Position numbers and translations under genes: made by a program
Shown: positions 377 through 33,760 of the stretch, in pieces
Position numbering within the stretch: the stretch's first letter is position 1
How the letters are laid out: every line of letters begins with the position of its first letter
NCBI GenBank assembly: GCA_023489335.1
Contig: JAMDCP010000003.1
Location: forward strand, 1 to 37,842
Reading direction: 5' to 3'
DNA from: Deltaproteobacteria bacterium
GTDB lineage: Bacteria; SZUA-79; Acidulodesulfobacterales; Acidulodesulfobacteraceae
DNA length: 37,842 nucleotides
The notes under the pieces: generated by a model
Told to the model about the DNA's origin: nothing
Databases searched by the model: none
Seen by the model: only the letters and a program-made list of their open reading frames with translations

Positions 377-1888
377 TCATAAAGTTGCCTCGTTTAGTGT
401 TGTTTTTCCTTCAAGATTATAGACAAATTTATCTATATCTAAAATTCGTACTTCGATGCCTTCAGGTTTAATAAACTCAGCATATCTATAGGTATCAATA
501 AAGGCTTTTGGCGAAATAAGAACCGAATAAGCTTTTATGCCATTTGCAATATATTCTTCTAAATGCCTGTGCACAGAAAATGATTCTCTGATATGTTGTT
601 GTGCCCCCGTTAAAAGTGTAACTTCAACTAAAACTGTGTCATTATTTTCCATACATTCTATATCAGGTTTTCCGCCAGATGCAAAACTTGTAGGCAAACC
701 TTCATCATCAGAAATAAAGTTAGGCTTTACTCGCACCTTTGGCAACTTCTTAAGGATAGCTAATGAGGTCAAAAATTCTAATCTTAAAGGTTGGTCTATA
801 ATTTTTAGAATTTCGTCTTTAGAAGATTTTTTTTGGGCCAAATTGAGCATCTCTGCTTTTATAATTTCCCATTCATAATATTCTACCCATTTCTCCAGCT
901 CTCTATCGGTAATTATGACAGGAGCTTTATAAACCGAAAGTGTCCCAATTAAATTATTATCGACCTTGCTGATATAATCAAAAAAATCCTCTTCAGTAGT
1001 GAAATCCGGGTGCAAGCTATAATTTTTTACGATGTAATCAATAGCTGCCAACTCTTTAGTGTTTAAATCAATAAAACGGCCGCCGCCGCGCAAAGAAATT
1101 AAACCTGTCAAACGCATCTTGCGGATAAAATCGTCCGGATAATCTCCTATAATTGAATTATCGTTCCGTTTGGTTTTATCTAATAAATCATAACAAAGCC
1201 CTAAAATTATTTCATTACTTGGTGAATATCCATATTTATTTCGCAACTTTTTTATTTCTTGATATAGACTTTCCGCATTGTCATCTTTCCAACATAATAG
1301 CAAAGGGATTTCTAATCTTGAAATACCTGTATTATTAAAATCTCGGTCTTTATTTAAAAGTTGGATTGTCTTAATAAGTAGAATTAAAGGGACATTTCTA
1401 TTTAAAACATGGCGAAATGGATTATGGCGTTGATATTTAGCAAAAGCATTAGCGAAAACCATGAGTTCGTTTTCTGGCTTTTCCTTGTCTAATAACATTT
1501 TTCCGCTTTCAGAAAACCCTATTTTCTCGTTTTGCCGATACCATACAAAACCTAACTCTTTGGCTATTTTAAACCAGGTATCAAATCTTGAAGGCCATCC
1601 TTTATCGAAACCTGCCTCTTTATGACTTTGTGGGTTTTCAGCAAATAAACGTTCAGTTTCTTCTTCGCTTAATTCTAATTCATTTTTCCATTTTTCTTTT
1701 ACTCCAGAAATAATTCTGGTTGGCTTATATATACCTTTTCTGATTAGGGTCTTGGATATTATTGTGATGATTTCATTAGTCAAAACTTTACCATCAAATT
1801 CCATAAGAACGGTTAAAAAATTCTTTAGCCGTTCTGGAGTGCGCATGGTTGTTGTAAATAAAAGGGGTTTATATTTATTATCTCCCAT
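377..1888 (-). CDS. AlwI-family type II restriction endonuclease
   Basis: A 503-residue protein that I place in the AlwI/PleI/MlyI/BspD6I family of type IIS enzymes, which bind a short asymmetric site and cut a few bases away. The C-terminal block around residues 399-445 carries the family-like nuclease signature: SGGKPDIEC (Asp409) followed by LVEVTLLTGAQQHIRES (Glu422), a PD-(D/E)xK-type arrangement with Thr424 at the usual lysine position. The N-terminal two thirds would hold DNA recognition. Its ATG lies inside the end of the methyltransferase gene (11-base overlap), so translation is probably coupled and protection is made first. No separate small nicking subunit, as in BspD6I, is visible. 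Recognition sequence cannot be read from the sequence. Confidence 0.82.
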   Translation of the reverse strand: MGDNKYKPLLFTTTMRTPERLKNFLTVLMEFDGKVLTNEIITIISKTLIRKGIYKPTRIISGVKEKWKNELELSEEETERLFAENPQSHKEAGFDKGWPSRFDTWFKIAKELGFVWYRQNEKIGFSESGKMLLDKEKPENELMVFANAFAKYQRHNPFRHVLNRNVPLILLIKTIQLLNKDRDFNNTGISRLEIPLLLCWKDDNAESLYQEIKKLRNKYGYSPSNEIILGLCYDLLDKTKRNDNSIIGDYPDDFIRKMRLTGLISLRGGGRFIDLNTKELAAIDYIVKNYSLHPDFTTEEDFFDYISKVDNNLIGTLSVYKAPVIITDRELEKWVEYYEWEIIKAEMLNLAQKKSSKDEILKIIDQPLRLEFLTSLAILKKLPKVRVKPNFISDDEGLPTSFASGGKPDIECMENNDTVLVEVTLLTGAQQHIRESFSVHRHLEEYIANGIKAYSVLISPKAFIDTYRYAEFIKPEGIEVRILDIDKFVYNLEGKTTLNEATL

Positions 1889-3953
1889 AATTAGTTACCA
1901 AAACTTCCTGAAAATTTTTAGTGGAATTATCATGATAGCTAATGTAATTGCTTTTAATAGAATTAGTTATATATTTCTTTGCCCATCCTGTGAAGATACC
2001 GTTTCTTTTGCCTTTATAGTGCGTAACATTGGAAATAGCAAATCTAAACCCCTTACTGTTTAATGAATCTAGAAATTCTAATAATCGTCTCTCTTTCTCT
2101 TCATCCCACAATTTATTATATTCACTGGAAGTTATTAAATATGGCGGGTCGAGATAGATAAAATCCTCCTTTGAAATATCAATAGAACTTATGAAGTTGA
2201 CATAATCTAAATTAAACCAATAAACAGATTTATTTTGAGTCCATTGAAAATAATTATTTAAAGCATCAACTACGTTTTTATTAAAATCTACGTTGCCTAC
2301 CGGCAAATTGAACTTTCCGGCACTATTAAAACGTGTCATTCTATTAAACCCATAAATAAGCAAAATGTATAATATTAAGATATTTTCTTGATTTTCATTA
2401 AAATCATTTCTTAATTTTCCATAAGCCATTTTATTAAATTGGGCATAATAGGTTTTTTTAAATTTCTGCTTAAGTTCTAAGGGGACAATATCCTCTCTAT
2501 AAGATTTTGACAAACTATATTTATCTATAATGCTATCAATTTGGCCCATAAAACAATTTTGATCTTTTGCGCTTTCTAATAATAATTTATGCAATTTAAA
2601 TATATAACTATCAATATCGTTAAGAAAATATTCTTTAGCTCTAACATTTAGAAAAACAGAGCCGCCGCCGGTGAATGGCTCAATAAATCGATTTATATTT
2701 CCAGGAAAAAAAGATTGAATTTGCGGAATTAATTTAAATTTATCACCAACATAAAACAAAGGCGAGCGGTAAATTTTAGGTTTTCTATGAATTGGATTAA
2801 TTTTAGTGATAAATAAAAATTCTTTGTGGTCATTAAATTCTGTTTTTCCGGTATTAAAAAAATTATGTGAATGCTCGAAAACTGTTGTATCGCCTTTCCT
2901 TTTTAATATTTCTTCAATTTCTTCTAACCTTATTTTGTTTTTAGAAGAATTACTTTTAGAGTTATAGGTATTGTTATAAGAAACCGCTATGTATTTGACA
3001 TTTAAATCCTCGATTAATTCATTAAAGGCTTTTTTTGCATTAACGGTGCAATATCTACTCATATTTTCAGTTGGAGGTTTTAATGCAACGCCGAAAAGTT
3101 GCGGTTTTTCCCATTTTACTAAATTTTCATAAATATGATAGAAACGGCTATACTGGCGGGAATTATAAGGCGGGTCTATATAGGCAACATCAGCTGTTAC
3201 TTTACTAGCCAATGAATTGGCATTTTCCTTATGTATTTCAATTCCATCGAAATCAATTGTTTCGATTAAACGTAATTGTAATTTTTGATTCTGAAAAGGT
3301 TTTTTAATATAAGCATCAAAATGTCCAACCGTGTTGGCAATTTTATCGATGTTGTAAATTAAAGTTGCCAATAAGATGCTATATTCCTTTTCCGTTAAAT
3401 GCGCTTTTTTATTTTCAATATCTTCTCTTATATAGCCAATAATTTTAGCATTATTATAATCAAAAAATTTACCGCCAAAATTTTCAGAAAAATAATTTTC
3501 TCCTAATTCATTTGGATTCAATATATTATATTGTACTATTAAATCTTCAATTTTTTTTCTATTCCATGAGCCGACTTTAAAAAACGCCTTATAAATAATA
3601 TTATTGGAATACAAAATATCATTTACGACTACTTTCTTAAAATAATCAAAGGCTCTTTTGGAAACCGTGGCGGTTCCTGCAAAAATATCAAAAAAAGAAT
3701 TGCAATTCCCTGTTTGGGTTAAAATAGTTTCTATTATCCAATTCGCTAATTTGCTTTTATTGCCAATATATCTTCTAGATTCTAATTTAATTAGATTATC
3801 ATTATAATCTTCGATGTCAGGCTGAAAATCAAATGCAAAATCAAAAGATTGTTGTATAGGATATTTTGTTATTACACCAGAAATGGCTCTTTGAATATCC
3901 ATATTATTTCCATTATCATTTGAAATTTGCGGTTGCCGAATGGTTTTTATCAT
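1878..3953 (-). CDS. Fused two-domain DNA adenine methyltransferase
   Basis: A 691-residue protein with two complete D12-class N6-adenine methyltransferase domains in tandem. Domain 1 has SAM-binding motif X at residues 60-69 (RRYIGNKSKL), motif I at 89-95 (DIFAGTA) and catalytic DPPY at 260-263. Domain 2 has motif X at 401-408 (YVGDKFKL), motif I at 425-432 (EPFTGGGS) and DPPY at 602-605. The halves are quite different from each other. By analogy with M.FokI, such fusions protect an asymmetric type IIS site by methylating one adenine on each strand, which matches the downstream AlwI-family nuclease. The start is supported by AGGTG about five bases upstream and a promoter before it. No controller protein is present. 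Confidence 0.88.
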   Translation of the reverse strand: MIKTIRQPQISNDNGNNMDIQRAISGVITKYPIQQSFDFAFDFQPDIEDYNDNLIKLESRRYIGNKSKLANWIIETILTQTGNCNSFFDIFAGTATVSKRAFDYFKKVVVNDILYSNNIIYKAFFKVGSWNRKKIEDLIVQYNILNPNELGENYFSENFGGKFFDYNNAKIIGYIREDIENKKAHLTEKEYSILLATLIYNIDKIANTVGHFDAYIKKPFQNQKLQLRLIETIDFDGIEIHKENANSLASKVTADVAYIDPPYNSRQYSRFYHIYENLVKWEKPQLFGVALKPPTENMSRYCTVNAKKAFNELIEDLNVKYIAVSYNNTYNSKSNSSKNKIRLEEIEEILKRKGDTTVFEHSHNFFNTGKTEFNDHKEFLFITKINPIHRKPKIYRSPLFYVGDKFKLIPQIQSFFPGNINRFIEPFTGGGSVFLNVRAKEYFLNDIDSYIFKLHKLLLESAKDQNCFMGQIDSIIDKYSLSKSYREDIVPLELKQKFKKTYYAQFNKMAYGKLRNDFNENQENILILYILLIYGFNRMTRFNSAGKFNLPVGNVDFNKNVVDALNNYFQWTQNKSVYWFNLDYVNFISSIDISKEDFIYLDPPYLITSSEYNKLWDEEKERRLLEFLDSLNSKGFRFAISNVTHYKGKRNGIFTGWAKKYITNSIKSNYISYHDNSTKNFQEVLVTNYGR

Positions 3954-3980
3954 TTTAACACCTATAATAACCTTTTTTTA

Positions 3981-4008
3981 ATTATATATAAATATTCGTC
4001 TTAAACAA
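3981..4008 (-). promoter_or_regulatory. Sigma-70-type promoter for the restriction-modification genes
   Basis: On the minus strand TTGTTT (4003-4008) and TATAAT (3981-3986) are separated by 16 bases. Transcription would start near 3974, about 20 bases before the methyltransferase ATG. The surrounding DNA is very AT-rich, so a chance match is possible. Confidence 0.45.
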
Positions 4009-4039
4009 CAAATTAATAAAGAATTTTAGAAAATATTTA

Positions 4040-5071
4040 CTATTTTCCCCACACATCATTAACCGCTTTCCGTAGTGTATCTGGCACCAAATGGCTGTAT
4101 CGCTTCGTCATCTGCGTAGTCCGATGTCCCAAAAGTTCCCCGGTAATATAAAGGCTCGTTCCGCCCATAACCATCTTGCTTGCGAATACGTGTCGTAAAT
4201 CGTGTATCCTTAAATCCTTTAATCCGGCATTGCGGCAGGCTGTCTTGAATGAATGCTTAAAATCGACGATTTTTCTGCCGGAATTGTTAAACACATACAA
4301 ATAATCGTCCTCTCTCTCAATCCCGCTTAAAAGGTCTTTTAAAGGTCTGGAAACGGGTATGTAGCGGTCATGCTTCGTCTTCGTCGCCTTTATTGCGATT
4401 ACGCCGTTCTGTAAGTCCACGTCGTCCCATTTAAGGTTGAGAACCTCTCCTTTTCGGCAGCCGGTGTAAATTAAAAAAGTAATAATGTCGCGGGTAAGTT
4501 TATTCGTGGCGCCGGCGATGAGTTTCTGCATATCTTCATCGGACAGGGTTTTGAGGCGGGAAAGTTCGTTTAGTTTTTTAACACCGGCACAGGGGTTTTT
4601 GTCGGTATATTTTTTCTCTATGCAGTAATTAAAAAAATTGCGCATTATGGCAATTTCGTAATTAATAGACCTTAAGTTTATCTCCGATTCCTTTTTCCCT
4701 TTATTTTTCGCCAGGCCCATTATTTCGCGCATTCTTTCGAACTGGTAATTTTTAATATCCGGCGTTGCTATATTATTAAACGCTTTGTTTCCGAATACGG
4801 GTAGGAAATGATTTGCGGCGGTTCTTTTTCTTACATCGGGATTAATTTGCGTCTTTAAATATTCCTGCCAGAGTATAGCAAAATTTGCTATACTTTTTTT
4901 CAGGACCGGAATCCTGTGTTCTTCTCTTGCCATATCGGTTTGCTTAGCTTCCGCGATAAGTTTGGCCGATTGCTTGTCCGAGGTTTTAGTGCTGCCCTGG
5001 TAGTGCTTTCCCTGGTAGGTTATGCTATAGTACCAGTTTTTAGAGTTTTTAGGCCTGTAAATGCTTGCCAT
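4040..5071 (-). CDS. Tyrosine recombinase / site-specific integrase
   Basis: A phage-type integrase of 343 residues when started at the ATG at 5071. That start has AGAGGGG about 10 bases upstream and gives MASIYRPKNSKNWYYSI, a common integrase opening; a TTG 33 bases further out is open but less likely. The catalytic set is complete in this numbering: Arg206 (TGCRKGE), His290 and Arg293 (HDLRH), His316 (LGHR) and Tyr325 (KRYSHL). The N-terminal arm-binding and core-binding regions are present, so it is not truncated. The gene begins about 140 bases from the 3' end of tRNA-Gln, the standard position for an integrase whose element recombines into that tRNA. It probably mobilises the restriction-modification genes to its left. 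Confidence 0.92.
   Translation of the reverse strand: MASIYRPKNSKNWYYSITYQGKHYQGSTKTSDKQSAKLIAEAKQTDMAREEHRIPVLKKSIANFAILWQEYLKTQINPDVRKRTAANHFLPVFGNKAFNNIATPDIKNYQFERMREIMGLAKNKGKKESEINLRSINYEIAIMRNFFNYCIEKKYTDKNPCAGVKKLNELSRLKTLSDEDMQKLIAGATNKLTRDIITFLIYTGCRKGEVLNLKWDDVDLQNGVIAIKATKTKHDRYIPVSRPLKDLLSGIEREDDYLYVFNNSGRKIVDFKHSFKTACRNAGLKDLRIHDLRHVFASKMVMGGTSLYITGELLGHRTTQMTKRYSHLVPDTLRKAVNDVWGK
4873..4893. repeat. 21-bp palindrome inside the integrase gene
   Basis: Perfect 10-bp arms GTATAGCAAA / TTTGCTATAC around a single central base. The arms repeat the GTATAGCAA motif found twice in the integrase leader. It codes for SIANFAI, so the protein sequence is compatible. It could be a binding site for the integrase or a repressor; this is inference. 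Confidence 0.5.
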
Positions 5072-5094
5072 TGCCGATTTACCCCTCTTTAAAA

Positions 5095-5116
5095 AGTATA
5101 GCAATAGTATAGCAAA
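5095..5116. promoter_or_regulatory. Tandem AGTATAGCAA repeats in the integrase leader
   Basis: Two direct copies of AGTATAGCAA (5095-5104 and 5106-5115) spaced 11 bp apart, about one DNA turn. They lie between the predicted integrase promoter and its ribosome-binding site, a good position for an operator. The same motif forms the palindrome at 4873-4893. Confidence 0.45.
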
Positions 5117-5137
5117 ATAATGTCATACCTATTCATT

Positions 5138-5167
5138 TTTATACATTTTTTTGCATAGGCTTGTCAA
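5138..5167 (-). promoter_or_regulatory. Sigma-70-type promoter for the integrase
   Basis: TTGACA (5162-5167) and TATAAA (5138-5143) on the minus strand with an 18-base spacer. The predicted start near 5131 gives a leader of about 60 bases that contains the tandem AGTATAGCAA repeats. Confidence 0.55.
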
Positions 5168-5212
5168 GAGGAAAATCGTCGGAACGGCTTTTTTTACTGC
5201 GGTTTTTTTAAA

Positions 5213-5286
5213 TGGCTGGGGGAGAAGGATTCGAACCTCCGTAATGGGAGTCAGAGTCCCAGGTCCTGCCGCTAGACGATCCCCCA
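5213..5286 (-). tRNA. tRNA-Gln (anticodon CTG)
   Basis: A 74-base tRNA on the minus strand with encoded CCA. The acceptor pairs TGGGGGA with TCCCCCA, including the U1-A72 pair typical of tRNA-Gln. The anticodon stem TGGGA/TCCCA encloses loop CTCTGAC, giving anticodon CTG for codon CAG. The T arm is GGAGG-TTCGAAT-CCTTC with one G-T pair. Overall it resembles E. coli glnV. The integrase lies just beyond its 3' end, so the 3' half of the tRNA is the likely attachment site and has been restored by the insertion. I did not find the duplicate attachment site within the window. Confidence 0.96.
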
Positions 5287-16004: not shown

Positions 16005-16065
16005 CCCCCATTCCCCTTTTTTAAAAGTGGTGTCAGTCCGCCGCAAGCGGACTGACGGGGTATTT
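16005..16065. repeat. Half copy of the AAATACCCCGTC hairpin element
   Basis: A C-rich arm, then perfect stem GTCAGTCCGC (16032-16041) / GCGGACTGAC (16047-16056), then the boundary GACGGGGTATTT (16054-16065). It lies just after the pilY1 stop and may also act as its terminator. Confidence 0.75.
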
Positions 16066-19910: not shown

Positions 19911-20049
19911 AAATACCCCGTCAGTCCGCTCAAGCGGACTGCCACCCCTTTTAAAAAAGGGGAATGGGGGTATCATTTCGCCTGTGGCATATCTTTGCCT
20001 GCGTTTATAAAACCACGGTTTTATGCAGGCAAAGATGGACGGGGTATTT
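19911..20049. repeat. Composite hairpin element with inverted boundaries
   Basis: 139 bp starting AAATACCCCGTC (19911-19922) and ending in its inverse GACGGGGTATTT (20038-20049). Inside are a stem CAGTCCGC/GCGGACTG, a central CCCCTTTTAAAAAAGGGG palindrome, and a second long stem (ATCTTTGCCTGC pairing with GCAGGCAAAGAT). It lies between pilX and pilY1 and accounts for the spurious upstream extension of the pilY1 frame. Confidence 0.75.
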
Positions 20050-26592: not shown

Positions 26593-27300
26593 TTAGTTTT
26601 CTTTGATTATTTTATAACTCGCCGGAAAATTGACGCTAAAAATATGGCTATTTATATGCCTGTTAAACCGGACACCCGCGTAATGAAATATTATTGTTTG
26701 ACCCTGGTATGTTAAAATTTTTAATGATGTTATCTTAAGGCTGTTTATTGCAAAATCGATGTAAATCTCTTTTGCCCTTTGAAGGCTTAAGGGCTTTAAC
26801 CCGACACCCACAATTCCTTTCACCGCATCTTTCTTCACGCTTTCAACGCTAAAATACTTAGTCAAACTTCCGATTACGGCAACAATATTAGGGGGGAACC
26901 CACCTCTTTCTTTACCCACATTAATAACCGTAACCTTTTTGATATCGCTGTCGATAATATAAAGCTCATTGCCTTTTAAAACCTGTCTTTTATGCATAGG
27001 ATAAGTATAAACCCATGCCATATTGCCCGGTTCTTTATAATAAAAATTACCTTTAAAGGACATATTTTGAGAATACCCCGGAATAATCTCTTTTTGAACA
27101 AAATATGCGCTTATGGAATGAACGGTTTTATATTTTGCTTCGATTTTCCCGATTATATTATTATTGCCTTCCTTACCGTAAGATTTCGGTATAAAACCTA
27201 TTAAAAACAGTACGGGTAAAATTAAAAACAGTACGGGTAATTTAGTTAATTTGGCAGTTATGGATTCCCGCCTACGCGGGAATGACAACTTTTTCTTCAT
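26593..27300 (-). CDS. lolA: Outer-membrane lipoprotein carrier LolA-like protein
   Basis: A 235-residue periplasmic protein. The half-barrel LolA pattern is seen in FKGNFYYKEPGNMAWVYTYP, NELYIIDSDIKKV and the later hydrophobic strands; it would ferry lipoproteins from LolCDE to LolB. The start is fixed by GGGAGA inside the end of ftsK, with the ATG two bases after the ftsK stop. The signal peptide is odd. Residues 5-13 (LSFPRRRES) are encoded by a dispersed palindrome, and the hydrophobic core contains a seven-residue duplication (VLFLILP then VLFLIGF). Cleavage should follow about residue 41 (SYG/K). Confidence 0.85.
   Translation of the reverse strand: MKKKLSFPRRRESITAKLTKLPVLFLILPVLFLIGFIPKSYGKEGNNNIIGKIEAKYKTVHSISAYFVQKEIIPGYSQNMSFKGNFYYKEPGNMAWVYTYPMHKRQVLKGNELYIIDSDIKKVTVINVGKERGGFPPNIVAVIGSLTKYFSVESVKKDAVKGIVGVGLKPLSLQRAKEIYIDFAINSLKITSLKILTYQGQTIIFHYAGVRFNRHINSHIFSVNFPASYKIIKEN
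27200..27241. repeat. 21-bp tandem duplication in the LolA signal-peptide region
   Basis: Two nearly exact copies of a 21-base unit (27200-27220, 27221-27241) containing AAAAACAGTACGGGTAA. Each copy encodes seven residues of the hydrophobic core. Confidence 0.85.
27262..27286. repeat. Dispersed palindrome encoding part of the LolA N-terminus
   Basis: GGATTCCCGCCTACGCGGGAATGAC-type sequence with stem ATTCCCGC/GCGGGAAT, a repeat found in many bacterial genomes. It is read in frame as SFPRRRES in the positively charged start of the signal peptide. Confidence 0.8.
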
Positions 27301-31221: not shown

Positions 31222-31277
31222 AAATACCCCGTCAGCCCGCATCAAGGCGGGCTGACACCCCTTTTAAAAAAGGGGAA
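31222..31277. repeat. Half copy of the AAATACCCCGTC hairpin element (atpD-atpC gap)
   Basis: Starts with AAATACCCCGTC (31222-31233), then stem CAGCCCGC/GCGGGCTG, then CCCCTTTTAAAAAAGGGG. Compared with the copies near pilY1, both stem arms have changed together, so pairing is kept. Confidence 0.8.
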
Positions 31278-31307
31278 TTAAAGACAAATACCAGATTGAT
31301 TGACTTC

Positions 31308-33659: not shown

Positions 33660-33760
33660 AAATACTCCGTCATTTTGCCTTAAGGCAAAATGCCACCCCC
33701 CCCCATTCCCCTTTTTCAAAAGGGGTGGCGGTCCGCCGCAAGCTGACCGACGGGGTATTT
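33660..33760. repeat. Composite hairpin element in the atpA-atpG gap
   Basis: 101 bp from AAATACTCCGTC (33660-33671) to GACGGGGTATTT (33749-33760). The first stem is CATTTTGCC-TTAA-GGCAAAATG, unlike any other copy. The centre is a C-run and CCCCTTTTTCAAAAGGGG. The second stem (GTCCGCCGCAAGCTGAC) is decayed. Confidence 0.8.

Follow-up and report, generated by a model that had tools for sequence, protein, structure and literature searches.

The window, that is, the whole 37,842-nucleotide stretch of deltaproteobacterial DNA that was analysed, carries members of a family of about 50 short non-coding repeats in which a fixed outer sequence encloses a hairpin that is swapped as a block. The family probably consists of non-autonomous mobile palindromes working like CGTC-tagged REPs, with a fixed frame, an exchangeable stem-loop and a recent spread. 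Their boundary, AAATAC(C/T)CCGTC, had been noticed in the initial annotation at four loci of the window, directly or as its inverse; all four are present, and the search for further copies that it proposed returns 45 exact occurrences in the whole assembly (G000; 1.80 Mb, 92% complete) against 0 for the reversed control, and 50 matches, including a few weak ones or antisense duplicates, for a covariance model built from the units. With all boundary sites read, the unit is laid out as AAATACCC, CGTC, a stem-loop, G(A/C)CA and CCCCTTTTAAAAAAGGGGAATT, where CCCCTTTTAAAAAAGGGGAATT is a companion hairpin of the CCCC..GGGG type; the conserved sequence runs beyond the first hairpin into G(A/C)CACCCCTTTTAAAAAAGGGGAATT, that is, into this second hairpin, and the CGTC tag is found in nearly all copies. 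Rfam has no match at the units, viral contigs have none to the frame, and a search for the frame sequence as text in published papers found nothing relevant.

The boundary sites of the window lie at 16054-16065 (-), 19911-19922 (+), 20038-20049 (-), 31222-31233 (+), 33660-33671 (+), where the boundary reads AAATACTCCGTC, and 33749-33760 (-). Two loci, 16005-16065 (-) and 31222-31278 (+, 3' of atpD), are single units: the former consists of AAATACCCCGTC, an AGTCCGC/GCGGACT stem and GACACCACTTTTAAAAAAGGGGAAT, with GGGGGTGC coming next as in dimers, and the latter has an AGCCCGC/GCGGGCT stem. The other two, initially described as composites with inverted boundaries at both ends like a miniature transposable element, are head-to-head dimers with CGTC outside (19911-20049 and 33660-33760), and the implied mobile behaviour is backed by the empty sites described below. 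Specifically, the first dimer joins a left unit (19911-19966, +), with an AGTCCGC/GCGGACT stem and companion hairpin, to a right unit (19967-20049, -) in which a larger hairpin, A, takes the place of the outer left arm; the second, between atpA and atpG, joins a left unit (33660-33694, +), with a ATTTTGCC/GGCAAAAT stem and a shortened companion hairpin, to a right unit (33705-33760, -) with a GGTCAGC/GGCGGACC stem and companion hairpin. Further dimers lie at C1:110.7-110.8 kb and C1:119.7-119.9 kb and a partial one at C1:304.2-304.3 kb; since only about 5 head-to-head dimers are recognised genome-wide among about 50 units, most copies are single. Folded as single-stranded DNA, the four loci of the window are all much more stable than shuffled sequence (z -5.5 to -9.5).

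As to the surroundings, the 19911 dimer stands directly upstream of the likely Shine-Dalgarno sequence and start (ATG 19892, minus strand) of a PilY1-family gene, and the long open reading frame that runs through the dimer is probably an artefact of start-site choice. The stretch 27260-27287 contains a separate repeat, one of the classic CGTC-1 type (GTCATTCCCGCGTAGGCGGGAATCCA), which is in frame with the beginning of a LolA-family reading frame and there encodes SFPRRRES. Lastly, an AlwI-type restriction endonuclease (Pfam), a two-domain adenine methyltransferase-like reading frame and an integrase-like reading frame occupy 377-5286, adjoined by a tRNA-Gln gene, and are probably an integrated restriction-modification island, with profile support for the endonuclease only.

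The arms of the stem differ between copies, and the initial claim that each still pairs with its partner holds for nearly every copy, with two corrections. The copy at 33749 has one mismatched pair, and the CTTTGCCTGC arm, counted initially as a stem variant, belongs to a separate nested hairpin. This hairpin A (CATCTTTGCCTGC...GCAGGCAAAGATA; 19990-20036, -, in the first dimer) is a repeat of its own that in about 12 units stands immediately after CGTC in place of the outer left arm, while a hairpin B (CATATTCACCTGC...) substitutes for the outer right arm in other units and the unit at C20:107.5 kb contains both. Other genomes of the family contain dozens of copies of hairpin A, placed within the arms or loops of other, unrelated palindromic repeats (for example CATTCCCG, hairpin A, TGCGGGAATGAC), as if it targeted hairpins. 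At about 260.5 kb of contig C8 in the source genome, a hairpin laid out like A (CATCTTT..AAAGATATA, with different arm letters) adjoins a TnpB gene and a TnpA remnant, and this resemblance in layout suggests that hairpin A may derive from an IS605-type end.

The covariation of the stems, also proposed at the outset, is borne out by an alignment of 24 units from the source genome and other genomes, in which 87% of cells pair against 58.5% after shuffling, 8 of 10 pairs change on both sides, and cells with two-sided changes number 58 against 14.3. The covariation score is 0.653, against 0.136 for shuffled arms and less than 0.1 with the partner slid, and in none of 500 shuffles did the pairing, the number of two-sided cells or the score rise to the observed level; the counts cannot be read as probabilities, because the sequences are related and were picked by their frame. 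In the source genome alone, of 7 positions 6.4 pair between the two arms of one copy and 5.4 between arms taken from different copies; 0 of 2000 shuffles reach the own-arm value. Selection for a structure and a mechanism that swaps hairpins had both been offered as the cause; covariation by itself cannot tell selection from exchange or from quasipalindrome correction, and on balance the evidence favours swapping. Whole hairpins are often exchanged: the units at C20:142.6 kb and C20:144.0 kb, 1.4 kb apart, agree in the boundary and, apart from one indel, over about 95 nt comprising right frame and spacer, with a ATTTTGCC..GGCAAAAT stem in one and a AGTCCGCC..GGCGGACT stem in the other. Moreover, among pairs of units whose frame and near flanks differ by less than 15%, the hairpin core differs by more than 40% in 24 of 99 pairs in the source genome and in 28 of 42 in Ignavibacteria-type genomes. 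Part of this apparent exchange could be older divergence with homogenised frames. It is unlikely that quasipalindrome template switching, which copies one arm onto the other, made the covariation as a mutational by-product, with neither block exchange nor selection at work: such mutation is established in E. coli (PMC7202029), and single compensated changes occur here (for example AGTCTGCC/GGCAGACC and AGTCAGCC/GGCTGACT), but template switching edits imperfect palindromes and alone does not give wholly different stems in frames that otherwise match. Since single compensated changes exist besides block exchange, both processes probably act, quasipalindrome template switching thus adding to the exchange. 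Stem covariation among dispersed repeats, then, need not imply a selected RNA.

The insertions are recent, as the congener G002 has empty sites at several loci, which answers the check for such sites suggested initially. At atpG/atpA, the flanks are joined in the congener and the 148-nt insert is wholly absent; likewise, no unit is found in the matching places of G002 3' of atpD, at C1:110.8, 117.8 and 126.7 kb or at C9:60.6 and 73.4 kb. The covariance model finds no convincing unit in the family's other 29 genomes, so that, among the family genomes examined, the expansion is in the source species only; single weak model matches in G002 and G005 are not units, nor are the exact boundary matches in relatives, among those inspected. 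The aligned flanks at the empty sites are 74-95% identical, and because intergenic divergence blurs the edges at most of them, the termini and the target site are not fixed: no target-site rule is established at the empty sites examined, one of which has a possible CAATTAA repeat. That the units are MITEs derived from a common kind of DDE insertion sequence, its ends lying near AAATACCCC/GGGGAATT, is a reading of very low probability: the ends are near-complementary and the 215-nt repeats of Ignavibacteria-type genomes look element-like, but clean target duplications are absent at these empty sites, no insertion sequence with such ends was noticed (the transposase searches covering Y1 only), and head-to-head and apparent tail-to-tail pairings both occur.

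By crude reading-frame calls, the neighbouring genes point the same way at 30 units, converge at 11 and diverge at 3, which is the usual REP distribution. This bias towards unidirectional and convergent genes, together with the stable folds, would suit hairpins that selection keeps at the ends of genes for transcript stability or termination. Such a role at the RNA level is nevertheless improbable as the explanation of the family, since the ATP operon carries, between its atpA and atpG genes, a dimer that the congener lacks, the expansion is confined to a single species, and in the plus orientation the companion hairpin is followed by GGGGAATT, with no T-run.

The same frame is found in other phyla. 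A pattern that joins the two halves of the frame by any 14-26 nt, that makes no demand on arm complementarity or the GGGGAAT edge, and for which about 0.2 chance matches are expected (our own estimate, with uniform base composition), matches 23 stretches in metagenome-assembled genomes (MAGs) labelled Ignavibacteriae, Endomicrobium, Elusimicrobia, Dehalococcoidia, Bacteroidetes and, in one case, just 'bacterium'. The arms are complementary in 23 of 24 matches, a GGGGAAT-type edge is present in nearly all, and the frame is multi-copy, with unrelated stems, in the Ignavibacteriae, Endomicrobium, Elusimicrobia and Dehalococcoidia MAGs. The covariance model finds 19, 8, 20, 10, 43, 11, 63 and 1 copies in eight of these genomes; in 3 of the 8, all eight being MAGs of unstated completeness, Y1_Tnp was not found. 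Stems shorter and longer than 8-9 bp occur in the other phyla. In Ignavibacteria-type MAGs, repeats some 215 nt long have the unit as their right end; their left part is conserved while the stems differ. A frame common to distant phyla may reflect either horizontal transfer or a shared recognition rule. A wider reading, which we hold only tentatively, would make the family cross-phylum mobile DNA in which the frame is recognised, the hairpin is a cassette, the larger foreign hairpins A and B enter at the same points, and movement is due to an enzyme other than a RAYT or a linked transposase.

On the mover, the initial suggestion of a Y1/RAYT protein gains an indirect link and finds no support as a direct one. 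No unit or frame sequence lies within about 1.5 kb of any of the 42 Y1 loci examined, and linkage to a RAYT or IS605 end was dropped on this ground. The sole intact Y1 gene of the source genome is an IS605 TnpA with TnpB, accompanied by a TnpA remnant; no RAYT-type gene is found in the 92% complete assembly, nor any mobilising gene for the units (the Y1 class being searched), and the missing gene is weak evidence because of that completeness. The indirect link comes from an outer palindrome, GGTRTCCGATTTATT, which occurs 58 times at no more than 1 mismatch (control 0), also exists as a bare palindrome, and is found 60 nt or less from at least 24 of the 55 unit entries, a count probably too low since the ends of some hairpin A/B units are approximate and hand-entered. 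It stands on both sides of 10 units, making a palindrome around them, and more than half of the units have no recognisable outer palindrome. Very similar repeats, GGTGTCAGATTTATTTATT and TATCCGATTTATTTATT, flank the RAYT-type Y1 genes of the relatives G021 and G009 (the Y1_Tnp profile matches the G009 gene and that of another relative), so the outer palindrome is, judging by this likeness, most likely a RAYT/TIRYT terminal repeat.

Under the favoured reading of non-autonomous mobile palindromes, the units would move and swap hairpins as single-stranded hairpins, recognised by their frame and not by the sequence of their stem. The agent would be either a trans-acting enzyme or template switching from one copy to another at two conserved blocks, CCCCGTC and CACCCC. 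Roughly half of the copies would probably have spread as cargo in RAYT/TIRYT-type palindromes, whose transposase gene is absent from the assembly.

Among known systems, the terminal inverted repeats of TIRYT/RAYT elements (PMC3733652; subclass 2.1 in PMC6006769) resemble the outer palindrome, which matches the repeats flanking RAYT-type genes in G021 and G009; unlike them, the palindrome here holds a CGTC unit mid-way and the transposase gene was not found in the source genome. REPINs, which have GTAG tags and their RAYT (PMC3116915), share the short paired palindromes and the species-specific expansion, but the tag here is CGTC, with no GTAG, and no RAYT is flanked by the unit. The closest likeness is to the CGTC-tagged REPs of Di Nocera, De Gregorio and Rocco (2013), which include dRS3 and RPE-4/RPE-6 and are defined by an unpaired CGTC at one end of the palindrome, an 8-9 bp stem with AT at its first two positions, a 4-5 nt loop and a short unpaired tail of consensus CCA; head-to-head dimers predominate among them, some within longer palindromes, and no transposase gene is associated (PMC3733652). 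Here too there are a CGTC tag, a 7-9 bp stem, a mostly 4-5 nt loop (8-9 bp and 4-5 nt hold mostly in the source genome), a short tail with CA at its end, dimers carrying the tag on the outside, intergenic placement, stems varying by paired changes and no linked transposase, in that the 42 loci of the Y1 class, the only one searched, have no frame nearby. The family departs from these REPs in its long conserved frame and companion CCCC..GGGG hairpin, in stems swapped as blocks and in head-to-head dimers being a minority; moreover, its stems start mostly with AG or GG, with AT only in the ATTTTGCC class and one other copy, and about half of the copies allow the GTC of the tag to pair with GAC, whereas the tag of the REPs is unpaired. 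The tail is GCCA in some copies and GACA, which can pair, in others. Since tag, stem, loop and the absence of a linked Y1 transposase agree, the family behaves like the CGTC-tagged REPs and fits best next to them as a variant. The survey of 2013 (PMC3733652) did not settle which agent moves CGTC repeats or whether movement continues; with an expansion in one species after the split from its congener, empty sites and interchangeable stems, this family makes the question of their mobility testable in a few genomes.
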